Part shown: positions 1,124 to 21,322 of the stretch, one piece after another
Position numbering within the stretch: the stretch's first letter is position 1
Layout: every line of letters begins with the position of its first letter
IMG/VR virus record: IMGVR_UViG_3300035698_019877
Coordinates: 1 to 25,802 of that record
Source: a virus
DNA length: 25,802 nucleotides
Reading direction: 5' to 3' (one strand)
The notes under the pieces: model-generated
Databases searched by the model: none
What the model saw: only the letters and a program-made list of their open reading frames with translations
Told to the model about the DNA's origin: nothing
Translations under genes and position numbers: made by a program

Positions 1124-1621
1124 CTATTCTCCTTTCCTAAATTTAACTATCATATTAAAACCATTTTCCTTATAATCAATTTCTTCCAGTCCTACTTCAG
1201 AACATACAACCTTAAACCAAGCACGGTCAAAAGCAACATAATGAAAATTTCCAGAATAATCTTGGCCACCATAAAGTAGCCAAGATATATATTCAGCATT
1301 CTTCCACCCTTTTTCAGATTTATAGTGTTTAATTATCTTTGCTAAATTGGGAAGCCTAAATTCAATTATACCGCCAGGCTTCAATTTTAACAACCAATTA
1401 AGTAAAACCTTTTTAGTTTTAGGAATAGGAAAATGCTCAATAATATCACTAGCCAAAATGTAGTCAAAGTGGTAATCTGGGAATGGTAAGGGGTCTGTAA
1501 CATTCAGTACATGGTCCACAACTGGAAGATTACGCTCGTCTACATTAATACATTTATAACCGGAAGGATATTCAGTATATGTCCGCTCCCCACAACCTAC
1601 ATTAAGTGTTAATTTATTCAT
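1124..1621 (-). CDS. small class I SAM-dependent methyltransferase
   Basis: A 165-residue protein with the class I methyltransferase core. LNVGCGE at residues 6-12 is motif I (the SAM glycine loop). A VDH-x-x-NVTDPLPFPD stretch near residues 35-49 matches the motif II/III region, and the segment FDYILASDIIEHFP is the acidic motif IV block seen in Methyltransf_11-like enzymes. It is short for the family and lacks much of a C-terminal substrate domain, so the substrate cannot be inferred; the setting suggests a sugar or glycan. It begins inside the end of the homing endonuclease gene (ATGA overlap, 1618-1621), with GGAGGT directly upstream, so translation is probably coupled. Confidence 0.85.
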   Translation of the reverse strand: MNKLTLNVGCGERTYTEYPSGYKCINVDERNLPVVDHVLNVTDPLPFPDYHFDYILASDIIEHFPIPKTKKVLLNWLLKLKPGGIIEFRLPNLAKIIKHYKSEKGWKNAEYISWLLYGGQDYSGNFHYVAFDRAWFKVVCSEVGLEEIDYKENGFNMIVKFRKGE

Positions 1622-3210
1622 CTAACCTCCATCTCATACTTTAAATTACCACAGTCCCAGATCCTATTCCAACCCTCTTCTTTACGAATTTCAATTTCTG
1701 TTTTATTAACAGGATCATTAAATGTTTTTCTAAGAGCAAACCTATGTAGTCTCTTTTTATTTTTGAAATACCAATAACTAGGTTTAGTGTAATCAACAAA
1801 AGTAAAACCAATGTTCTCATACAAATTACCAACAGACCATCTCCTATCAGCAAAAGTAAATATTTTTTTACAACTAAAATTCTTTTTAAAATAAGACATA
1901 AATTTAGATGCTATCCCCACCACTATACACCCAATTCTAGAACAAAACCTTGAAAGCTCATATAGACCAGGAACATCTTTTCTATAACCTTTGGATACAG
2001 AAGGTTTAGAAAAAGTCATTACAGAAACCAATTCATTTTTATAAAAAGCACCTAATTTTACAGCAGATCCAGTATACCCTTGTAAATGATTTTCTTCACA
2101 AAATTTCTTAGCTATATTAGCAGGTATTTCTTCTATATAACATTTTCTAGCATGTATCTTAGTAAAATTATTTTTAATACCCAATATATTAGACAATCTG
2201 GAAAATACTATATCTCTATTATTTAGAAATTCGTCCTCGAATATAGTAATTAATTTGTAACCCAACTCCAAACACTTGTTTAACTTATTAATATGATAAT
2301 TTTTGTCCTTACCAGCCGATTCTGAATGCCAGTACAAACCACAGTATTCTATAGCCACTTTCTTTTCTCGAACAACAATATCTAACTCATAAGGACTAAT
2401 CACATCCCTACAATTAGATTCAAAAGTCACATTCAAAAGTGACATGAATTCTCTTATGATAAGTTCTTGCCCAGAAGAACCCATACCAGAACATTCAACA
2501 CAGCGAGAGCCTTTGTGTAACCAATTATTCCAATTAACCTTATAAATATGACCAGCAGGGCACTCCAATTCTAAAATCTGAGAAGAATTATCATATTTTT
2601 TTGTTATTAATTTATATCCTTCTTTTGCTAAAATACCCTTTATTTCTTCTACATCAGCCCTTATACCACCATTACAATGTGGGCATCTTCTGCCTTGAAG
2701 AAAATTGTGAAAAGATGACTCATAAACATGCCCTTTATCACACACTATAGTTAGGGGTGAAAACACATTAACATACTTATCTGACAACAGTTTATAACCA
2801 ACTGATGACAAAGATTCTTGTATATCTTTTTTAGACTTCTTTATATTCCCAGAACAAAAAGGGCATCTTATTCCTTTTCTTAAATGATCTATACGCATAC
2901 TCCATAAATGCCCTTTAGAACACCTGTATTTAAACTTCTGCTTAGAATTAACATACACATCGTCAATAAGCTCTAAACCAGCCTCTTTAAATTCTGCTCT
3001 TATTATATCTAAATTCAACACAGCGTTACCACTACAATAAGGGCATCTGTGCCCAGATTTCCAATCTGCCCAAGAAATACAGTGTTCATGCCCCTTATTA
3101 CATCTGTAATTAAGTTTCTCTTTAGCTGAAACCCAAACATCTGTAGTAAGAGTATATCCATCTTTTAGAAATTCCCCTCTTACAAAATCTATAGTAATTT
3201 TTTTAGGCAT
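1618..3210 (-). CDS. free-standing VSR-like homing endonuclease with four zinc-ribbon repeats
   Basis: 530 residues in three parts. (1) Residues 1-242 are four tandem modules of about 60 residues, each ending in C-x3-H ... C-x2-C (C37/H41/C56/C59, then the same set at +60, +120 and +180), like the probable zinc-ribbon family DUF4379; a DNA-reading role is inferred. (2) Residues about 247-335 form a VSR/EDxHD-type nuclease: E249, D277 in YELDIVV, E288 in AIEYCGLYWHSE, then H295/H306. This fold is known from phage homing endonucleases such as I-Bth0305I. (3) Residues about 350-520 are a C-terminal part common in phage proteins of this kind (ARKCYIEEIP, HLQGYTGS, ADRRWS). The gene overlaps its neighbours by 1 and 4 bases, sits inside the sugar operon and directly follows the two-intein gene. 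It looks intact. Confidence 0.85.
   Translation of the reverse strand: MPKKITIDFVRGEFLKDGYTLTTDVWVSAKEKLNYRCNKGHEHCISWADWKSGHRCPYCSGNAVLNLDIIRAEFKEAGLELIDDVYVNSKQKFKYRCSKGHLWSMRIDHLRKGIRCPFCSGNIKKSKKDIQESLSSVGYKLLSDKYVNVFSPLTIVCDKGHVYESSFHNFLQGRRCPHCNGGIRADVEEIKGILAKEGYKLITKKYDNSSQILELECPAGHIYKVNWNNWLHKGSRCVECSGMGSSGQELIIREFMSLLNVTFESNCRDVISPYELDIVVREKKVAIEYCGLYWHSESAGKDKNYHINKLNKCLELGYKLITIFEDEFLNNRDIVFSRLSNILGIKNNFTKIHARKCYIEEIPANIAKKFCEENHLQGYTGSAVKLGAFYKNELVSVMTFSKPSVSKGYRKDVPGLYELSRFCSRIGCIVVGIASKFMSYFKKNFSCKKIFTFADRRWSVGNLYENIGFTFVDYTKPSYWYFKNKKRLHRFALRKTFNDPVNKTEIEIRKEEGWNRIWDCGNLKYEMEVR
2485..3210 (-). repeat. four tandem 60-residue zinc-ribbon modules in the homing endonuclease
   Basis: The cysteine and histidine ligands recur with a period of exactly 60 residues for the first three modules (C37, C97, C157 and C217; the last CxxC pair is shifted by one residue). 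Each module has the pattern of a short helix, a G-[YL]-x-L-x-x-x-x-[YW]-V segment, then C-x2-GH, a W/H-rich stretch and RCPxCSG. The protein modules are clearly related, but the DNA copies have diverged and are not exact repeats. Confidence 0.8.
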
Positions 3211-6200
3211 TATAACTCTACAATATTATCTATAATTTTTTGACCAATATTTTCCCATCCAAAATTATCACAGATATACTGCTTTAATTTAGTAGACTTA
3301 AGTATAGACGCATCTCTATGTTCAAAAACATATTTCATTAAATCAGAGCCATGCTCAACATCAGGTTCAGCCCATAGTTGATTCCCTCGATACCACGGGC
3401 TCCATGGCATACCAGAAACTGGGGTTTTAGTATAGTTTACTAAATAACTATTATCAGGTTTAGCATACTCTGTACTGCCACCAAACCCAGTAACTATAAT
3501 TGGGTTACCAATAGCCCCAGCAGTAAAAGGACAATTATGCATCAATATACCATTTCCAACAAAACTTTCAGCTTCTTTTACAGTAAAATCATACATATAA
3601 TCATTATATTCTATATCTTCTATATTAGTAATTTTAACTAAAAAGTAATTATCTGTCTCTACATGGTGTTTTCTATATGAATCTAACACATTATCACATA
3701 TAAATTTTTCATAATCTTCGTTTGCTATACTCACATTATACGGGTTAAAGTTACCAAATTTACCTATAGACTTAACACATATACGAGGGCACATATTTAG
3801 ACTATTAAGTATGGTCTTTACTTGGTATGCTAATGTATGTGATACAGTTGTTAAAGCGTAAGCACTACCAGAATCATGTCCATCTCCAATAAACAAACTT
3901 TTCAAAAGAGGTAGTAAATGTTTACCAGATAATAACAACCATTTAGGAATACATTTATTTACAGCCCCCTTTCCAAAAAGATTAGCAAAAACTTCTGCTA
4001 AAATTTTATTACTTACTATAATTCTACATTTATTGTCATATTGCTGTAGATAAATAGAATTATTACTAACTCCAAAACTATCCTCAAAAACCTCTGCTAT
4101 TTTTTTAGCTACATCATATTCATTTTTATGTAAATCTATTTCAATAAAACTACCATTATTATTACTTCCTTCTGCTATATACCAACCAAACAAAGATAAA
4201 ATACTATAATCTATTGTAATAAAACGATTTATTTTGTTAGGCTCTTTAACTAAAAAATCAATACTTAATAATATGTCATAAGCTTTTCTTGTACTTGAAC
4301 CTTCTTTAGGTATAGTATTCTTTTTAATATGGCTTACCGCACCTTCAAATATTTTCTTTGTAAACCCATAGGTTTTAACTAGACTAGAGTAACTATATTC
4401 AGTATCTTTAGGAGAATATCCCATTTTAATAGCTATAGTAGTATCATCTTCTATGATATCATCTCTATCTATATAATCTAATAAATCTATTTTTTCTGGT
4501 AATTTTTCATCAAGTGCTGGTTTAGGTATTGCTACATAATCACCTACTTCCACACTACCTGCTTCACACCAATAGAGTTTTTCCTCTATTTCATTCTTCG
4601 TATAATTATATCTTTTCCAATTTGATAGATCTTTTGTTATATAGAGCGGGTGTTCATAACTGACTATACTATCTTCGTGTAATTTTACAGAGAGTTTTAA
4701 AGCTCTTTCAACATGTCTTTTTGAGACTGAAGTTATTTCATGAAATCCCCCATCTTTAGATAGTGCCTTATCTCCTTTACAAACATCTTTTGCTTTTTTA
4801 ACTCCTTCATCATTAATAACATTCATATCTCCACCGACACAAAGACCAAACCCTTCGCCACGATCAAATGAGGTATAACAATCCCCTCTAGCGTGTAGCC
4901 CAAGAATTTCATCATTAGACAGCATATCTAAAATCAAATATATTTTAGGGTATTTATCCATAGGCATAACAAATTTCATACGCTTAACAGTGCTTCTTAT
5001 AGCATCCTTCTCTTGATCACTATAATCACTTCTATAAGTTTTTAAAACAAGAGCTACATTCTCATCATTCTGAAAAGACCTCCAATATGCTTTCATCAAA
5101 GCCAGTGGGTGTTTTCTCTCTGTATTACTGCAGAATAACACTTTACCATTGCGTTCTACCAACATGGTATGGTTTTTTACTCTAGCACAATATATATACC
5201 CATCATAATCTATTTCTTTCAGATTGGCATAATACATACTTGGTTCATTATTCTCTCTATTAACAGACACAGTATATTTAAGTCTTCTCCCTTGGATAAT
5301 TCTACCGTCTATTTTTCCTGGATTATTATCTTTAGGATCTGAAATAGAAATTGCACCCGACATACCGACTTTCAATAAGCATTCCTGGACATCTTCTGCT
5401 AATTTTTTGGAAGTAGTAACATATTTACACCAAGTACCGTTTCTATGAAAACTACCATCACCCTTAATAAGGGATTCAAGTAGCAACAAAATATGATCTG
5501 TACATAAACTCTTTATATCTTCATCAATATATTTCTCATAACATTTTCCGAACTGTTGTAAATACAAACATAACTCTCTAGAATTAAAAATAATATCTTT
5601 ACCACAATCTATAGGGGTGAACCCTAGATTCTCAATACATTCCCAAATCTCTTTTCTATATGCTTCACTTTTCGTCTGTGTTATAACAACTCTATAGTAA
5701 TTATCTGTAATCTCGATGGAGCCTTCGGATAAATACCACCCCATAAAACGCATAAAAGAATCTATAGGCAACTTTAGAGGCTCACCATTATTAAGTTTGT
5801 AACTACTATTAGAGTATGGAATTTCAAAGTAACATAGTCTTTTACCATTCCATCTACAATTTTTTTTGGTCCTATACTTACCTGAAACTTTCAACTCGCC
5901 TTCTTTATTAGTTATTACCATCTCATTCAGTGGCTTTAACTCCCAAGAACCTTCAGGATCTACCTTGTAAGAACCCTTCATATGTTCTTTAACAACCATT
6001 TTATGTTCCGGATTAACACACAAATCAAATTGGGCACCTTTTAGATGAAACATTTTATCTTTCCTATAAAAACTAACTATCTCATCCGGATTATAATATT
6101 CTAGTTCATCAGTATCTTTATTAAGAGTAGCTATTTCATCTTCGTATACCAAGTCTTTAAAATATTTAAATCCATTTCTTGTAAGAACCCTAGTCTTATC

Positions 6201-6728
6201 ATCGTAACACCATTGAAATATACTATAAAATACAAAGGTGTCATCCCCAACACCATTTACTTTGTAAGGTTTAATACCGTCGAATTCAGACATGTTAATA
6301 CCATGTGGAACCACACCAATAGGAATAGTAACACCACTATTCTTAAAAACACCCCTATTCCAAGTACAACCTACTAAAACTTTATCAACATTCTCATTAA
6401 TATATTCAGGCCATTTATTATGAAGTCTATCAGTTTCCCAAATAGTGTAGCCTATATTTAACTTTCCATCCTCTCTGTACTTATCCCAAAACTCTGGTGT
6501 AGTATGAATAATTACTACATTATAATCAACATTTTTATTAATTAAACTCTTAAGCACATCACCGTGTTTACCTAACTCCGGCCTAGCGGGTTCAAAAGAA
6601 ATAGAATTAACTGTAATAGGCACACCAAGTTTATGTAAAGCCAATATATTACCGCGTGATGCCTGTGCATAACCAGAATTATCCAGGCATGGGGCTATAT
6701 ATTTAATACCTGTTATTTCCGTACCCAT
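3210..6728 (-). CDS. GT4/GT-B glycosyltransferase precursor interrupted by two inteins
   Basis: The 1172-residue precursor should splice to a 374-residue glycosyltransferase made of residues 1-173, 536-629 and 1066-1172. The N-terminus (APCLDNSGYAQASRGN) resembles that of the upstream transferase at 6776-8092, and the GT-B donor-site motif EGFGL-CPFTAGAIGNPII is restored only after the second intein is removed. The second acidic residue of the usual E-x7-E pair appears to be Thr. Intein 1 (residues 174-535) splits FQW^TERKHP; intein 2 (630-1065) splits EGFGL^CPF. Both carry LAGLIDADG endonuclease motifs. The ATG at 6728 has GGGAGGT upstream. The stop shares one base with the ATG of the homing endonuclease gene. 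Acceptor and sugar are unknown. Confidence 0.9.
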   Translation of the reverse strand: MGTEITGIKYIAPCLDNSGYAQASRGNILALHKLGVPITVNSISFEPARPELGKHGDVLKSLINKNVDYNVVIIHTTPEFWDKYREDGKLNIGYTIWETDRLHNKWPEYINENVDKVLVGCTWNRGVFKNSGVTIPIGVVPHGINMSEFDGIKPYKVNGVGDDTFVFYSIFQWCYDDKTRVLTRNGFKYFKDLVYEDEIATLNKDTDELEYYNPDEIVSFYRKDKMFHLKGAQFDLCVNPEHKMVVKEHMKGSYKVDPEGSWELKPLNEMVITNKEGELKVSGKYRTKKNCRWNGKRLCYFEIPYSNSSYKLNNGEPLKLPIDSFMRFMGWYLSEGSIEITDNYYRVVITQTKSEAYRKEIWECIENLGFTPIDCGKDIIFNSRELCLYLQQFGKCYEKYIDEDIKSLCTDHILLLLESLIKGDGSFHRNGTWCKYVTTSKKLAEDVQECLLKVGMSGAISISDPKDNNPGKIDGRIIQGRRLKYTVSVNRENNEPSMYYANLKEIDYDGYIYCARVKNHTMLVERNGKVLFCSNTERKHPLALMKAYWRSFQNDENVALVLKTYRSDYSDQEKDAIRSTVKRMKFVMPMDKYPKIYLILDMLSNDEILGLHARGDCYTSFDRGEGFGLCVGGDMNVINDEGVKKAKDVCKGDKALSKDGGFHEITSVSKRHVERALKLSVKLHEDSIVSYEHPLYITKDLSNWKRYNYTKNEIEEKLYWCEAGSVEVGDYVAIPKPALDEKLPEKIDLLDYIDRDDIIEDDTTIAIKMGYSPKDTEYSYSSLVKTYGFTKKIFEGAVSHIKKNTIPKEGSSTRKAYDILLSIDFLVKEPNKINRFITIDYSILSLFGWYIAEGSNNNGSFIEIDLHKNEYDVAKKIAEVFEDSFGVSNNSIYLQQYDNKCRIIVSNKILAEVFANLFGKGAVNKCIPKWLLLSGKHLLPLLKSLFIGDGHDSGSAYALTTVSHTLAYQVKTILNSLNMCPRICVKSIGKFGNFNPYNVSIANEDYEKFICDNVLDSYRKHHVETDNYFLVKITNIEDIEYNDYMYDFTVKEAESFVGNGILMHNCPFTAGAIGNPIIVTGFGGSTEYAKPDNSYLVNYTKTPVSGMPWSPWYRGNQLWAEPDVEHGSDLMKYVFEHRDASILKSTKLKQYICDNFGWENIGQKIIDNIVEL
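3534..4841 (-). mobile_element. intein 2 in the glycosyltransferase (LAGLIDADG, 436 aa)
   Basis: Covers residues 630-1065. It starts at Cys in CVGGDMNVIN; block B is SIVSYEHPLY, with the His kept. The endonuclease blocks are LSLFGWYIAEGS and LLKSLFIGDGHD, both with an acidic residue at the catalytic position. The C-terminal block is SFVGNGILMHN followed by Cys (+1), a standard His-Asn/Cys junction. Excision restores RGEGFGL joined to CPFTAGAIGNP, the nucleotide-sugar binding loop, so the enzyme should be inactive until splicing occurs. Its sequence is not close to intein 1, which points to separate acquisitions. Confidence 0.93.
5124..6209 (-). mobile_element. intein 1 in the glycosyltransferase (LAGLIDADG, 362 aa)
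   Basis: Covers residues 174-535 of the precursor. The first residue is Cys (CYDDKTRVLTRNG, block A) and block B is CVNPEHKM. The endonuclease blocks are FMGWYLSEGS and LLESLIKGDGSF, with the catalytic-position Glu and Asp kept. The C-terminal block runs from HTMLVERNG to VLFCSN, followed by extein Thr. The penultimate residue is Ser where His is usual, a known variation that can slow Asn cyclisation. Removing it joins FQW to TERKHPLALMKAYW, a continuous glycosyltransferase sequence. The reading frame is open throughout. Confidence 0.92.
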
Positions 6729-6775: not shown

Positions 6776-8092
6776 CTAAAATTCCTCCGCTTTAAGTGTT
6801 CTCTCAGATTCTTCTGAGGCGGCCAAACCGTTATTTCCTTCTTTAACTATGTCCATATAAGCCTTATCAAATAGATCAACCCACTTCGGCGCAACACTAG
6901 TTTGCCAATCCATCTGTGTCATAATCCAAGCATATGCATTCTCTGCCTTTTTCTTAGCTTCATCATAATTATTATAAACCTCAAGCATAGTATCAACTAG
7001 ATTATTAACATCAACTAAAGGTCTAATTACTTCATTATCATGTGGAAGCACAGTGTAAAGGCTTGGGTCATCACCACTCTTAACAAGGTAACCACGCTCT
7101 TCAGTAATGTTTTCTGTAATAGCCGTATTATCAGGCATAATAATTGGTGTTTTAGTAGCCATGGCCTCAATCCACGATAGCCCCCATCCTTCACCGAGAG
7201 TAGTGCTAATAACGCAGTCTGACGCATTGTAGATCAAATTTACTATACCAATAGGATATCCTTGATTAGGACCGAAATTTTCAGGGAAAATAACATCTTC
7301 CTGTACGCTGAAACCAAAAGAATCGCAAACTTTAACCAAATCCCACCCTTGATCTTGTTTGGCCATATGTAAATACAAAATAGAATTTGGTACTTGTTTT
7401 CTAAACTCCTTAAAAGCCTGCAAAGTTCTAGGAATATCCTTACGCTGTTGATTTCTATTCAAATTAGTAAAAATGAATTTATCATGGTGTTTGCCAAAGT
7501 ATTGCTGCCTAAACTTAGCAATATCTTTACCACTCATAGGGGTAAAATTAGCGGTGTTAGCCCCATGAGGAATACTATACATATCCTTAACTTCTGGAAA
7601 TGCTCTTTTAGCCTCTCGCTTACCAAACTCAGAATAGGCAACTAGATAGTCTACAGAATTAACATTCCTAATCCAATCTCGGTTAGGTGAGCCATCCACA
7701 GGAAAATAACAAATAGATTTAAATTTTTTCAACTCAGCTTCCCTTAAATGTTGCATTAGTTCCGGTAGAAAATCCAAAATAAATGTGTCCTGCAAAAAGA
7801 ACAAAATGTCATACCCTACTTGTTTAATCATATCAGGAATCATACCACATATTTTTTTACGGCCGTATGGATCTCGCTCCGAATTAGTACCAGTAGGCCA
7901 AATTCTATAGGGAAAAGTGTGTGGATCACCCCAATAATTAACACCTAAAATATCAATTTGGTACCTACCAGTTTTATGAAGCCCTTCAAAAATGTTTCTA
8001 CTTACTGTGCCAAAACCTGTAGCACAAGTGGGCGAATCACAATAAGCAAGCACCTTAATAATTTTATTAGTATCTATATTCTTTTCCATCAT
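6776..8092 (-). CDS. GT4-family glycosyltransferase
   Basis: A 438-residue GT-B enzyme that should use a nucleotide-sugar donor. The N-terminal Rossmann half begins VLAYCDSPTCATGFG (residues 14-28). The C-terminal half has NLNRNQQRKD (210-219), IFPENF (268-273) and the donor motif EGWGLSWIEAMATKTPII (301-318), with the complete E-x7-E pair (E301, E309). Its layout parallels the two-intein transferase downstream; both have an SxGx-x-x-SRxN-like N-terminal loop, so they are probably paralogues. The C-terminal tail (about 415-438) is acidic and low in complexity. Two adjacent ATG codons sit at the start behind GGAGAAGGTATAAGG; either could be used. A 47-base gap to the next gene holds only that gene's ribosome binding site. 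Confidence 0.9.
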   Translation of the reverse strand: MMEKNIDTNKIIKVLAYCDSPTCATGFGTVSRNIFEGLHKTGRYQIDILGVNYWGDPHTFPYRIWPTGTNSERDPYGRKKICGMIPDMIKQVGYDILFFLQDTFILDFLPELMQHLREAELKKFKSICYFPVDGSPNRDWIRNVNSVDYLVAYSEFGKREAKRAFPEVKDMYSIPHGANTANFTPMSGKDIAKFRQQYFGKHHDKFIFTNLNRNQQRKDIPRTLQAFKEFRKQVPNSILYLHMAKQDQGWDLVKVCDSFGFSVQEDVIFPENFGPNQGYPIGIVNLIYNASDCVISTTLGEGWGLSWIEAMATKTPIIMPDNTAITENITEERGYLVKSGDDPSLYTVLPHDNEVIRPLVDVNNLVDTMLEVYNNYDEAKKKAENAYAWIMTQMDWQTSVAPKWVDLFDKAYMDIVKEGNNGLAASEESERTLKAEEF

Positions 8093-14922: not shown

Positions 14923-15271
14923 AGAAACCCCCATCTAACGCCTTATAAATTTTATTTTTTACTAGTTCCTTAGTTACTTCTTCATCATAATAAAACCTTA
15001 CTAGGCAAAACTTTGTGTTCTCTTGTACATATTGTAGTTTTAAGTTGTCCCTTTTCTTTTGGCCGCGAAAATTTTCAACACATCCATGAAAATGGTGTAC
15101 ATAACATTCATGTTGCCTCCCCTGTACCTCAATAAAGATACCAAACTCCTTGACATAAAAATCAAAAAAGAGCCTAGTGTCTTCAAATTGAACATAGTGT
15201 TCCTTAATTATATTATATCTTGGAAATACTTCTTTAAGGAAACTATGAATCTGATCAGCTATTTTGCTCAT
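14915..15271 (-). CDS. small PD-(D/E)XK (VSR/DUF559-like) nuclease
   Basis: 118 residues from the ATG at 15271; a GTG six bases upstream is less likely. The core LFFDFYVKEFGIFIEVQGRQ (D40 region, E-V-Q-G-R-Q-H) followed by QKKRDNLKLQYVQ and FCLVRFYYDE matches the Vsr/MutH-like restriction fold: an acidic strand, an E-x-[QD]-G-x-x-H strand, a K/RD helix and a final strand. Related small nucleases are widespread in large phages and may act in recombination, repair or host DNA breakdown. Lying directly after recA suggests recombination (inference). It overlaps the RecA stop by 17 bases. Confidence 0.7.
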   Translation of the reverse strand: MSKIADQIHSFLKEVFPRYNIIKEHYVQFEDTRLFFDFYVKEFGIFIEVQGRQHECYVHHFHGCVENFRGQKKRDNLKLQYVQENTKFCLVRFYYDEEVTKELVKNKIYKALDGGFYE

Positions 15272-17420
15272 ATTCACTCTTCAAACCAGTCATTTCAATA
15301 ATACCATCACGAAGATACCTGTATAACTCTTCATTTTCTCTTAATACCTCAATAGCTTTTATTTCTCCCTGGGCAAAAAATTTGTCTACACCTGGTTTGT
15401 AGTAATAAGCACCACGCTTTTCTACAAGCCCCAAACCCTCAGCTAAAGTAAGGCATTCAGAATGTATATCATACCCAACACCATAAATAAGCGGAATTTC
15501 AGCAGTTCTAAATGGGGGAGCTAGCTTGTTTTTTCTAATTTCAAATGTAGTCTTATGACCAATAGTCTCGCCAGTAATAGGGTTAACTATCCTAGAAGAC
15601 TTAGCCTCACCGCCAGAAACTGAAATTCTACCAGTAGCATAAAAACCAATGGCCTCACCACCTGTAGTTATCCTGGGGTCGCCGTAAGCACCAATCTTAT
15701 ACCTAAGCTGATTAATAAATATCAAAAGTGTGTTTGTTTCGCTTGCTATAGGAACAAACCTCCTCATTGCTTTGCTCATCAATCTAGCCAACAACCCCAT
15801 AAAATCATCGCTTATTTCTGCTTCAGACTCTGCTTTGGGAATAAGCGCGGATACACTATCCACTACAGCAACATCAAGCTCTCCGGTCTTCATATACATT
15901 TCTAAAGCATCCAAATTATCATCACCTACATAAGCTTGGATCATTTCAACCTTATCAATATCAACATCCATAGCCCTAAAAAGTGTTGGATCAGCTGCGT
16001 GTTCTGCGTCAACAAAACAACACAACATTTTTCTTTTTTGGGCCTGCGCCATAACACTCATCGCAAGTGTGGTATTATGACTAATAAAACCATTGGACAC
16101 AAAACTATGAGTTTCTGGCATCACGACATCAAATACTGGAACAATACCTACATCTTCAACATTACTAACTTTATCACACGCATACTTACTTAACTCACAT
16201 AAATGGTATAAAATTAAAGCAGTAGCACCACCAATCTCTAAATTAGTAAGAGTAAGGTGCCCTAAAATAGTATTTAATTTACCAATAGACAAGCTTCCGC
16301 CACTACACCTATCTATGTCGTAGCTCAACGAGCGATAACTCTTGCTATCAACACCCTCAACATCAGCATATAAAACCTTCAACAATATATCCTGATATGG
16401 GTAGTTCCACTTATTAAACATAGGTTCTTTTTTTAAATTAAAATCTACAAATTTATTTACTTTATCATCTAAAACAAACCCTATTTCAATCATAAAAGTT
16501 ACTACATCTTCATCATAAATTTCTATGTAATAACAACTATTACCATAAGTGCCATTAGTATCTATCTTAATTATTGATTTAATACCAAATCTTCCCAACA
16601 ACAAAAGCTGAAGCTGTCTCATTAAATTATGAGAAACACCACTTGCGGTAATCCTATTAGGCTCTCCACAACAACAATTAGAACTGAAATAAGATGACAA
16701 AAATTTGGAAATTACTTTGTTAGAACTTTTACGAATTTTAATAGGAACAGAACTATCAAATAACACTTTATCTTGGCCATTTAACTGCTCGTCAGCAACC
16801 AACATACCTAGAAATGCTGCTTCATCCTCTGAAATTTTATCATTGTCTATATCATAACTAGACTTACTTATTAAAATACAGTCACCAATCTTAATATCCT
16901 TAGTTCGCCTCCACACAATCAGACCAGTGTCACTGTCAATTACCTTATACTTATGCTGGCCAGTAGATTCTGTTTCAAAACCAGCACTAGTAGTTATTTT
17001 TTTAACTTCTTGATTCCCACTCCAAACAAAATGAGATGTCTCTTCGATTTGTCCATCTTTGTTTAAAAGCCCACAAGAACACTTAGTATTTTTATCTGCT
17101 ACACACACTGGTGTTCCGTATAGACTAAAAAGCTCCTCAATGGTTAGAAGTCCATGTTGTGTGTTCAAATAACTATCCTTACTTTGACATTTACCACCTG
17201 AAGGAGGACCATAAAACTCATATATCCTTCCTCTAGCTAAACCACCTCTGCCCACAGCAACATCAAGGCCTAGGGAACCTGTGGAAACGGTGTCTATAAT
17301 AAGATCTCCCTTTTCCCCCATAGTGCTAATAACACTACCATATTTCTTAATAATGGCCTTCTTAGCTATTTCTAAAGTACTTCTAGTCTTAGGATCGCTA
17401 TCAACTTTTTTCTTTGCCAT
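15255..17420 (-). CDS. recA: RecA recombinase precursor with an intein in the P-loop
   Basis: The precursor is 721 residues from the ATG at 17420 (GGAGGG upstream); removal of the 372-residue intein leaves 349, matching E. coli RecA (353). The exteins show GPPSGGK^TT as Walker A (71-77 plus 450-451), LDVAVVDSVSAL as Walker B (515-526), the L2 DNA loop FINQLRYKIGAYGDP and TTGGEAIGFYA, and a short C-terminal domain that lacks the long acidic tail of E. coli. The protein coats single-stranded DNA and drives strand exchange, probably in phage recombination-dependent replication. It overlaps the unknown gene upstream by 20 bases and the nuclease downstream by 17. Confidence 0.96.
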   Translation of the reverse strand: MAKKKVDSDPKTRSTLEIAKKAIIKKYGSVISTMGEKGDLIIDTVSTGSLGLDVAVGRGGLARGRIYEFYGPPSGGKCQSKDSYLNTQHGLLTIEELFSLYGTPVCVADKNTKCSCGLLNKDGQIEETSHFVWSGNQEVKKITTSAGFETESTGQHKYKVIDSDTGLIVWRRTKDIKIGDCILISKSSYDIDNDKISEDEAAFLGMLVADEQLNGQDKVLFDSSVPIKIRKSSNKVISKFLSSYFSSNCCCGEPNRITASGVSHNLMRQLQLLLLGRFGIKSIIKIDTNGTYGNSCYYIEIYDEDVVTFMIEIGFVLDDKVNKFVDFNLKKEPMFNKWNYPYQDILLKVLYADVEGVDSKSYRSLSYDIDRCSGGSLSIGKLNTILGHLTLTNLEIGGATALILYHLCELSKYACDKVSNVEDVGIVPVFDVVMPETHSFVSNGFISHNTTLAMSVMAQAQKRKMLCCFVDAEHAADPTLFRAMDVDIDKVEMIQAYVGDDNLDALEMYMKTGELDVAVVDSVSALIPKAESEAEISDDFMGLLARLMSKAMRRFVPIASETNTLLIFINQLRYKIGAYGDPRITTGGEAIGFYATGRISVSGGEAKSSRIVNPITGETIGHKTTFEIRKNKLAPPFRTAEIPLIYGVGYDIHSECLTLAEGLGLVEKRGAYYYKPGVDKFFAQGEIKAIEVLRENEELYRYLRDGIIEMTGLKSEYEQNS
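16074..17189 (-). mobile_element. RecA intein (372 aa), inserted between Lys and Thr of Walker A
   Basis: Covers residues 78-449. It starts with Cys (CQSKDSYLN) and block B is ESTGQHKYKV (T-x-x-H). The endonuclease-like blocks are FLGMLVADEQL and LLKVLYADVEG; both catalytic-position Asp residues remain, though the usual following Gly is Glu or Val, so activity is uncertain. The C-terminal block is SFVSNGFISHN followed by Thr. It is cysteine-rich: KCSC at 113-116 and CCC at 249-251, which could bind metal or sense redox state (inference). It splits the ATP loop, so RecA cannot work before splicing. Confidence 0.94.
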
Positions 17421-18009
17421 CAATTCCCTCCACAAGCCCATCAAACACTAAAGAACCTGGGCCATAGTTTTTTATATACCAATCATATGTTTTCTTACAA
17501 TACTCATCTGATTCTAATTCTTCTTTCTCTAATTCTCTATCCCTTATAATACCCAAAGCAACTTCAGTAACCCAACCAAGATTCTTTTGACCAAATATAC
17601 CAAAATTCATACTGTTAACAGTAAGATTAAACCTACTGAAATTACTAAACACTGTCTCTATAATTAAGGAACATTCCTTTAAGGCATGTTCTTTATCACA
17701 CCCACTAGACAACATTCTAGACTCTATAAAAGTCTTAGCTATTTTTCTATCTCTTTGATTATTCCTATGTCTACCAACCTTGCTTGGAAATTTGTAGTCA
17801 AGCAACCCATAGAACAGATGTATTAAATCATCCATCTTCTTAACATTACTAAAATTCCCTTCTGGACTCTTAATAACCCTATAACCACGCGTCTTTAAAT
17901 ATTCGGCACACAAACTAATTATAACTGAGTTATTATCTATATAAAACAAAGAAGATTGGTTTAGTTGCTCTCCAATAACCTTATAAAGACCCTCTAAAAC
18001 AGCATCCAC
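17401..18009 (-). CDS. protein of unknown function between clamp and RecA (GTG start)
   Basis: I do not recognise this 202-residue protein. It is mostly helical by eye with mixed charge: an N-terminal SLFYIDNNSVIISLCAEYL stretch, a basic middle (KVGRHRNNQRDRKIAK, about 78-93), then a hydrophobic IIETVFSNFSRFNLTV segment and an acidic linker (EKEELESDEY). No catalytic motif is visible. The start is GTG at 18009, with AAGGAG six to seven bases upstream and a TAGTG join to the clamp stop. Its place in the clamp-RecA operon points to replication or repair. Confidence 0.65.
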   Translation of the reverse strand: MDAVLEGLYKVIGEQLNQSSLFYIDNNSVIISLCAEYLKTRGYRVIKSPEGNFSNVKKMDDLIHLFYGLLDYKFPSKVGRHRNNQRDRKIAKTFIESRMLSSGCDKEHALKECSLIIETVFSNFSRFNLTVNSMNFGIFGQKNLGWVTEVALGIIRDRELEKEELESDEYCKKTYDWYIKNYGPGSLVFDGLVEGIDGKEKS

Positions 18010-19255: not shown

Positions 19256-21322
19256 CTAAATTATGTCTATGCCTTTACCTTGACCTACACCTACAACAAG
19301 CTGCTTGCTCTGTACATTAATACTTGACGATAAACCAGATGAACCAGGCTTTTCATATATAAGATTTACATATGCTGATAACATAGTACTCATACTGCCT
19401 CTTGTCAAGTTAATACTAGCAGATAAATTTCCAACCGGCTCATCAGTAACATAATCTACCACTAACCTAACAGCCTCATCAATATCAACATATCTGGTTA
19501 AATCATGTAAAACTCTAGCTCTAAATAGCTTTCTTTTTATACTTAAAGCTCTATCTTCTGGTATATAAGCCTTAACATCAACAACCCACCTATCTAATAA
19601 ATCATCAGCACTAAAAACAACATTTCCAGAGCTTAAATAAATATAATCCTTTACCATACTCTTAAATGTTATTTCAACAATCTTAGACAACAGAGCTTGC
19701 CCATATCTGTTAATATTGTAAACTAACTCTTTATTCTTCGTATATTTAAAATTATAGTCCTCTATTCTTACAGGTGTTAAGGAAGAACTTAAACTTGTAG
19801 AATGTAGTATACCTTGTATGGAAGCCGTAAGATATGAAAGTCTTTTAAACATAGACACATATATAGGAAGAATATCAACAACTTTTACAACACCACCAGT
19901 TGAAGTTACTCTAATTGGGAACTTGTCCATAACAACAGTTACTGGTGAATAGCCAACAGTAGCAGCAAGATTCCTAATAAGTCTATGTCCAAAAACACCA
20001 TTGATATACGCAGATAAATCATCTTTGTATACAGATCTAATATAAGCTGTAAGCTCACCATATCCAGAAGAACCACAAGAAACATTAATCATGGCTGCCA
20101 AATCTTTATGTTCCATAGTAGACACAGCCAATACAGTAGTCATTCTAATCATCTTAGGATAAATAGACGCGGTAAGCACACTAACATAAATAGTTGGGTT
20201 TATAGATGCACTCAAAATACCAGCTGTTATTGGTGTCATATTAGCCGATAAATCAGTTTGTTGCCAGGCACCCATACTAGCACTTAAATTAAACGGAACT
20301 TTTGTAGCATAACAACCTTTAATAGCAGCCGACAAAAATGACCTATAATCCACCGCGTTCAAAGATGCCCTTAAATTATACGGGTAATCAAGAGCATTCA
20401 AACTAGCTGATAAAAATAATGTATCCCAAGAATGGATGTTAGCTGTTAAAGGTACAAATGGTATCGCAAAAACACTAGCAGATAAATTATACAGGTAAGT
20501 AGCTCTTAGATGCCCACTTAAATCACTATAATTAAAAGCTCGAATATAAGCCTGCAAATCTTTAGATACAGTGCGACCCCAACCCTTAACTGTAGCCAAC
20601 AAATTTACCCATTCGTGAGCACTAATAGACGCATTTAAATTCGAATAATAAACAGATTTAATATCAGCGCCCAAATCCTTAGAAGCCCACCCTCTCAAAT
20701 AAGCTGGTAATATACGCTGTGGCCAAACCTTTAAATAAGCTGGAAGGTCTACCCCCTGTATTGGGTTCAAAGATGCCTGTAGGTCATAAACCATTAAAGC
20801 AGAGATTGTTGCACCAAAATCCACCGCTTGCCAGCCCATCAAATACGCAGAAAGGTCTGTGTCTGATTTAGAAAACACATTAATAAAAGCAGATAAATCA
20901 GCTGGAAAATGAGCTTGAATACTAGCTGTAAGATCCTTACACGCAAAACCTCTAATAGACGCAATAAAATCACTCCATGTCAAACCCTCTAATGTTGCAG
21001 ATAGGTCTTTATAACTGGAAATAATTTCTTGATCAATACCTACAGAAGCAGTTAAATTTCTTGCCCCTTCATAAACACAACGACCTCTTATAATCTGAAC
21101 ACCATACTTAGAGTAACCAATAATATAGGTAGGACACTCTTTTACTGTGTCGTATTCTGCTGGTGGCTGAGACATGACATTTATAGACGCCCCCAAATAA
21201 GAAGTAGCCACTACAGAACCAAGCTGGCTAAAATCAAAAGCAAGCTTATCCATGTCAGGTTTAGTGTAGCCACCAGAACCGAATTGAAAAGGTAAGTTAT
21301 TCATAGGGGGTGTATTAGCCAT
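19256..21322 (-). CDS. large virion-type protein made of about 30 twelve-residue repeats
   Basis: A 688-residue protein with a non-repeat N-terminus (1-86), a repeat region (about 87-456) and a mixed C-terminus. The repeat is 12 residues: [DN]-L-[ST]-A-[SYFT]-[IL] followed by six variable residues, often with GW. Core L positions include 107, 119, 131, 143, 157, 169, 181, 192, 205, 217, 229, 241, 256, 268, 280, 292, 304, mostly 12 apart. More copies occur at 498, 511, 633, 648 and 664; a non-repeat charged domain (about 515-625) is spliced into the series. This suggests an extended beta-solenoid or strand-turn array, such as a fibre or surface adhesin; function is unknown. No signal peptide. 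AAGGATGG precedes the ATG. Confidence 0.85.
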   Translation of the reverse strand: MANTPPMNNLPFQFGSGGYTKPDMDKLAFDFSQLGSVVATSYLGASINVMSQPPAEYDTVKECPTYIIGYSKYGVQIIRGRCVYEGARNLTASVGIDQEIISSYKDLSATLEGLTWSDFIASIRGFACKDLTASIQAHFPADLSAFINVFSKSDTDLSAYLMGWQAVDFGATISALMVYDLQASLNPIQGVDLPAYLKVWPQRILPAYLRGWASKDLGADIKSVYYSNLNASISAHEWVNLLATVKGWGRTVSKDLQAYIRAFNYSDLSGHLRATYLYNLSASVFAIPFVPLTANIHSWDTLFLSASLNALDYPYNLRASLNAVDYRSFLSAAIKGCYATKVPFNLSASMGAWQQTDLSANMTPITAGILSASINPTIYVSVLTASIYPKMIRMTTVLAVSTMEHKDLAAMINVSCGSSGYGELTAYIRSVYKDDLSAYINGVFGHRLIRNLAATVGYSPVTVVMDKFPIRVTSTGGVVKVVDILPIYVSMFKRLSYLTASIQGILHSTSLSSSLTPVRIEDYNFKYTKNKELVYNINRYGQALLSKIVEITFKSMVKDYIYLSSGNVVFSADDLLDRWVVDVKAYIPEDRALSIKRKLFRARVLHDLTRYVDIDEAVRLVVDYVTDEPVGNLSASINLTRGSMSTMLSAYVNLIYEKPGSSGLSSSINVQSKQLVVGVGQGKGIDII
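19955..21055 (-). repeat. main block of the dodecapeptide repeat (protein residues 90-456)
   Basis: About 30 copies of a 36-base, 12-residue unit, diverged at DNA level but locked in phase at the L-x-A-x-[IL] core. Insertions of one to four residues interrupt the phase at a few points (for example 15 residues from 241 to 256 and 16 from 330 to 346). The 12-residue step, rather than 20 or 40, is unusual for phage fibre repeats I know of. Confidence 0.8.

Follow-up and report, generated by a model that had tools for sequence, protein, structure and literature searches.

Two LAGLIDADG inteins in a viral GT-B glycosyltransferase gene, and the recurrence of inteins across its family

The 25.8 kb virus record analysed here (the window) contains a glycosyltransferase (GT) gene into which two class 1 inteins with homing endonucleases appear to have inserted, each at its own site. 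The favoured reading, with a probability of about 0.88, is that both are selfish homing inteins that would be spliced out to restore the enzyme, with DNA cutting and homing as their presumed means of spread. Enzymes that act on DNA or nucleotides are generally regarded as the preferred hosts of inteins, which often sit at their phosphate-binding loops. The initial annotation had recognized this pair of distinct LAGLIDADG inteins within a single GT-B sugar-transfer enzyme, and Pfam matches, predicted folds and intein-free alleles confirm that assignment.

The precursor occupies positions 3210 to 6728 on the minus strand, as do all window features below, and is a single open frame of 1172 amino acids plus a stop codon. 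Alignment to intein-free homologues places the N-extein (GT residues 1-173) at 6210 to 6728 and the 94-residue middle extein (residues 174-267) at 4842 to 5123; between them, at 5124 to 6209, lies intein 1 (I1), with 362 amino acids inserted at site 1, residues 173/174 (FQW/CYDD...FCSN/TERK). Intein 2 (I2) follows at 3534 to 4841, with 436 amino acids inserted at site 2, residues 267/268 (EGFGL/CVGG...LMHN/CPFT). Splitting the frame at the junctions leaves a C-extein of 107 amino acids (residues 268-374 and the stop codon) at 3210 to 3533, which contains a third intein site, GMPW/SPWY at 311/312, that is empty here. When split at FQW/C...SN/TERK and EGFGL/C...HN/CPFT, the exteins of 173, 94 and 107 residues join into a protein of 374 residues, and the lengths given initially, including that of the spliced product, are correct.

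The joined exteins align with intein-free viral homologues from end to end at 52-68% identity, gapless at both junctions, as the initial proposal required. For L018, an intein-free homologue with 67% identity to the exteins, the AlphaFold2 (AF2) model (pLDDT 92) has the two-Rossmann GT-B fold, and the family's closest solved relative is the chlorovirus glycosyltransferase B736L (PDB 3oy2; profile E 1e-14, fold E 8e-19), an enzyme from a virus of algae that shares only 18% identity and whose solved chain is intein-free. The GT-B part of the proposed family label thus holds, but strict GT4 membership does not: the Pfam Glycos_transf_1 match of the joined exteins (14.6 bits) is below the cut-off of 26.4 and, in the EX7E motif, Glu263 is invariant while the second Glu (residue 271) is Thr in the window GT, so the enzyme is filed as a GT4-like GT-B protein. 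A GT profile search of prokaryote genome contigs found no relative. On the L018 model, whose residue numbering is the same as that of the window exteins, site 1 comes after a strand whose position makes it the first in the C-terminal Rossmann domain, site 2 falls within the EGFGL loop past Glu263, where the second intein had been placed from the outset, and site 3 lies between two strands.

I1 passes the Pfam cut-off for LAGLIDADG_3 only (PF14528, 1e-10), with no Intein_splicing match by sequence, and its splicing part was therefore examined by structure. Its AF2 model (pLDDT 84), for which nine sequences were used, either allelic or related, matches endonuclease-bearing inteins over residues 1-362; the best match is TliVMA (Z 25.9 over 306 residues), and PI-SceI reaches Z ~21. 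Like I1, these inteins (PDB 7qsu, 7qss and 1vde) consist of a HINT domain with an inserted LAGLIDADG endonuclease; unlike I1, they reside in V-ATPases, and their identity to it is 11-17%. The terminal residues C1, N362 and T+1 are those that a class 1 intein requires, T+1 is present in all nine alleles occupied at site 1 (the window and eight relatives with allelic I1 inteins), and the LAGLIDADG acids E162 and D251 are invariant across the I1 family. The assisting residues are less regular: His B:10 is present, Asn is found at B:7 (NxxH for TxxH), and the penultimate residue is Ser, with Gly-Asn ends in relatives. Judged by these residues, I1 could splice slowly or incompletely. Such assisting residues are common and not universal; splicing without a penultimate His is the subject of a paper cited in PMC4031507. 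Overall, I1 is a class 1 LAGLIDADG intein whose model shows a full HINT splicing fold and an endonuclease, and for which splicing itself would be expected.

I2 has the more conventional profile. It exceeds the cut-offs of Pfam Intein_splicing (3e-10; 40.4 bits against 35.8), Pfam LAGLIDADG_3 (PF14528, 9e-8) and the NCBIfam intein C-terminal model TIGR01443; its C1, HN end and C+1, with Ser at B:7, conform to the class 1 splicing blocks, and its LAGLIDADG acids E224 and D320 are invariant across the I2 family. The junctions had been called clean, and this stands for the terminal residues (Cys...Asn followed by Thr or Cys) but not for the Ser-Asn end and the NxxH block B of I1. Likewise, the splicing blocks sought by HMM search are over cut-off in I2 and absent by sequence in I1, though the predicted fold of I1 is that of a complete intein.

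Across the family, inteins are present in 12 of 34 distinct homologous GT genes, and 22 have none; when only homologues found with extein queries are counted, in a search whose patterns avoid the intein sites, 9 of 31 are occupied. Three sites are filled in six combinations (only site 1, only site 3, 1+2, 1+3, 2+3 and 1+2+3). Site 1 is filled in the window, L048, L049, L051, L053, L054, L060, L063 and L073; I2 alleles at site 2 are found in L042, L054 and L060 besides the window; and site 3 is filled in L011, L014, L042, L063 and L060. Every intein-bearing GT gene other than that of L060 is a single open frame. The L060 contig has all three sites filled, with frameshifts in its inteins 2 and 3 that are either sequencing errors or decay, and it carries a group I intron as well (RF00028, L060:6531-6755; 71.4 bits against a gathering score of 50, when L060 6400-7100 was searched alone with laxer filters). 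This intron lies between FG and MPW, immediately ahead of the site 3 intein, so that in the L060 GT gene an intron and an intein are separated by just a few codons. The Rfam search of seven loci together at gathering level had returned nothing, which for L060 was a filter effect, as the later detection shows; the intron search of the window itself was made at the gathering level. A putative further insertion site at residue 212 in L054 and L060 was rejected because the tblastn alignment had run into an intein.

The gene tree indicates repeated gain or loss, with sites 1, 2 and 3 needing 7, 4 and 5 changes and occupancy scattered over its branches. Moreover, the I1 tree conflicts with the extein tree, as predicted by lateral homing, and I1 moves independently of the GT gene. 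In particular, L048 and L054 are joined by their exteins at 100/100 and fall in opposite clades of the I1 tree at 100/100; in the AU test, the intein data reject the extein grouping of L048 with L054 (p 6e-9) and the I1 clade is in turn rejected by the extein data (p 2e-4), these p values being somewhat optimistic since the groups were chosen with the trees already in view. This test of independent spread rests on I1, the I2 alleles being too few for a tree. In the pair L053 and L063, dS is 0.61 in the intein and 1.03 in the exteins, a difference that a recent intein transfer would give. Where dS could be estimated among relatives, dN/dS is 0.08-0.17 in exteins and I1, which indicates constraint on both enzyme and intein; these values are the relatives', as the window exteins are too diverged from their nearest intein-bearing relative for dS.

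Occupied sites also differ from empty ones in sequence. Cys, Ser or Thr is found at +1 in 18 of 18 occupied sites and in 68 of 84 empty ones (p 0.07, pooled over sites and with related alleles that are not independent). At site 2, Cys at +1 is present in 4 of 4 occupied and 2 of 30 empty alleles (p 3e-4, again with non-independent related alleles), as either co-conversion or selection for the splicing nucleophile would give. Further, the intein sites lie in better conserved stretches than expected by chance (joint p 0.003), although these hits on conserved loops could reflect function-driven retention instead of homing-site conservation.

The donor-binding loop is occupied in other glycosyltransferases as well. 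Along its entire length, I2 is related (~26-34% identity) to inteins in two other settings: EGWGL/S of the neighbouring gene gt2 (L042 and L054), and EGWGL/T and EGFGL/T of distant GTs (L148 and L150). The gt2 genes of L018 and L063 carry inteins at EGFGF/S. The L063 element (L063:908-1363) is a mini-intein of 152 residues without an endonuclease, and its relative at this site in L018 is 382 residues long and does bear an endonuclease; a further intein in L063 gt2 ends in HN/CAKKDQGW. It is conceivable, and quite improbable, that one intein lineage moved between paralogous and distant GT genes at this loop and that several slow inteins time glycan synthesis in infection.

I1-type inteins have a wider range of hosts. 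One lies in another GT (L080) within one residue of site 1, an equivalence that is tentative because the alignment has low identity, and others lie in apparent tape measure, minor head, terminase and RNA polymerase genes identified by eye. A class III aminotransferase (Pfam) on a viral contig (L075:2533-4851), another enzyme that does not act on DNA, also carries an I1-type intein. Among deposited phage records, the nearest relatives of I1 and I2 are inteins of thymidylate synthase, terminase, nicotinamide phosphoribosyltransferase and ribonucleotide reductase, which share ~22-41% identity with I1 and I2 and differ in their host proteins. No glycosyltransferase was among the annotated intein matches listed from 50,697 phage records, some of which have no annotation; an Enterococcus phage frame with an intein match was considered as a GT host and rejected, since nothing in its annotation suggests a glycosyltransferase.

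The GT gene is part of a glycan cassette in which gt2, a GT4-type glycosyltransferase by Pfam (6776 to 8092), precedes it; gt2 is intein-free here, and the inteins of its relatives lie at EG[WF]G[LF]/S. Behind the GT gene is a free-standing homing endonuclease-like gene (1618 to 3210; phrog_559 1e-124, phrog_3339 9e-94, and Pfam), whose ATG overlaps the GT stop codon and whose product combines zinc-finger repeats, an MTES_1575-like nuclease region and a Mom-like domain. Pfam and synteny then identify a methyltransferase (1124 to 1621; Methyltransf_11) and a GT2-type glycosyltransferase (472 to 1122; Glycos_transf_2). Many relatives keep the arrangement gt2, GT, (endonuclease), methyltransferase, GT2, with the endonuclease-like gene behind the GT in L042, L024, L034, L039 and L049 and the methyltransferase directly behind it in L029, L051, L021 and L023. 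The GT family and its glycan cassette are a mobile-element hotspot. Elsewhere in the window, the RecA gene (15255 to 17444, minus strand) contains the virus's third LAGLIDADG intein (16074 to 17189), inserted past the Walker A lysine (GGK/C...HN/TTLA), and positions 19256 to 21322 (minus strand) encode a 688-residue protein, possibly structural, with many repeated LSAYI/LxASI-type motifs.

In the proposed mechanism, splicing of each intein would begin with an acyl shift at Cys1, followed by transfer to Thr+1 (site 1) or Cys+1 (site 2) and Asn cyclisation; both inteins would excise after translation, and the exteins would rejoin as the 374-residue enzyme. An intein would spread when, during co-infection, its LAGLIDADG endonuclease cleaves the intein-free allele of another phage and the break is repaired with the intein-bearing copy as template. 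Selfish homing combined with splicing accounts for the existence of empty alleles, the mosaic occupancy, the tree conflict and the intact endonucleases, and no regulatory role is needed to account for inteins in the GT family. The initial annotation had suggested such a role, with splicing gating sugar transfer. Under conditional splicing, the inteins would be kept because, by splicing slowly or in a stress-sensitive way, they postpone or gate glycosylation while infection proceeds. Both inteins break conserved core motifs, so that, judging from the fold, the unspliced precursor should be inactive, as had been supposed; the non-canonical assisting residues of I1 could slow its splicing; and a precedent is described in PMC6195587, where the two inteins of M. 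smegmatis DnaB have very different rates and stress responses. However, gating predicts retention, which is not seen: each intein is absent from most homologues, the 22 intein-free genes and the scattered occupancy form a mosaic, I1 moves independently of the GT gene, the endonuclease acids are invariant, and gt2 and other phage proteins bear similar inteins without a common function. The gating proposal is thus not upheld, and conditional splicing is considered improbable.

It is somewhat less probable still that one or both inteins are degenerate and do not splice, leaving the GT as a pseudogene or as an enzyme working in fragments. The unusual end residues of I1 and the frameshifted inteins of L060 are compatible with decay, but the window gene has 1172 stop-free codons, catalytic residues are invariant in exteins and inteins alike, and the low dN/dS extends to the exteins of intein-bearing relatives. 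That the inserts are instead integral parts of the enzyme, HINT or endonuclease domains of the BIL or hedgehog type, is barely credible. The HINT fold alone cannot tell inteins from BILs, and both are among the fold matches of I1; against this stand the precise empty alleles, the allelic copies at identical positions, the terminal Cys...Asn/Cys-Ser-Thr junctions and the full-length match to endonuclease-bearing inteins.

Selfish homing inteins in several sites of one gene have counterparts among archaeal replication proteins. The haloarchaeal mcm and polB genes have four and three intein sites, respectively, filled singly or together as in the GT gene; all lie in the conserved catalytic domain, their inteins spread horizontally, and the +1 residue matters for splicing (PMC10643990). 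The GT, in contrast, is a sugar transferase of an uncultured virus, and beside the intein sites its family has an insertion site for a group I intron and an adjacent free-standing endonuclease gene. Mycobacteriophage TerL inteins are concentrated at catalytic motifs, with five sites in TerL1, and the non-terminase hosts noted from that work are mostly DNA or nucleotide enzymes and a portal protein; the term 'glycosyl' is absent from the paper (PMC5050341). A search of open-access literature for inteins in glycosyltransferases found no paper; such absence, here and among the phage records, is weak evidence. The elements are canonical inteins, and what is apparently new is the GT host class and their recurrence in it.

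Phage sugar transferases are repeated hosts of inteins: one enzyme has three insertion sites, and others are hit at the corresponding donor loop. The family therefore offers a natural test of how intein sites are chosen, whether by conservation of the DNA target, by nucleotide binding of the host protein or by its essentiality, since alleles with no, one, two or three inteins are all at hand, as is a mini-intein form.
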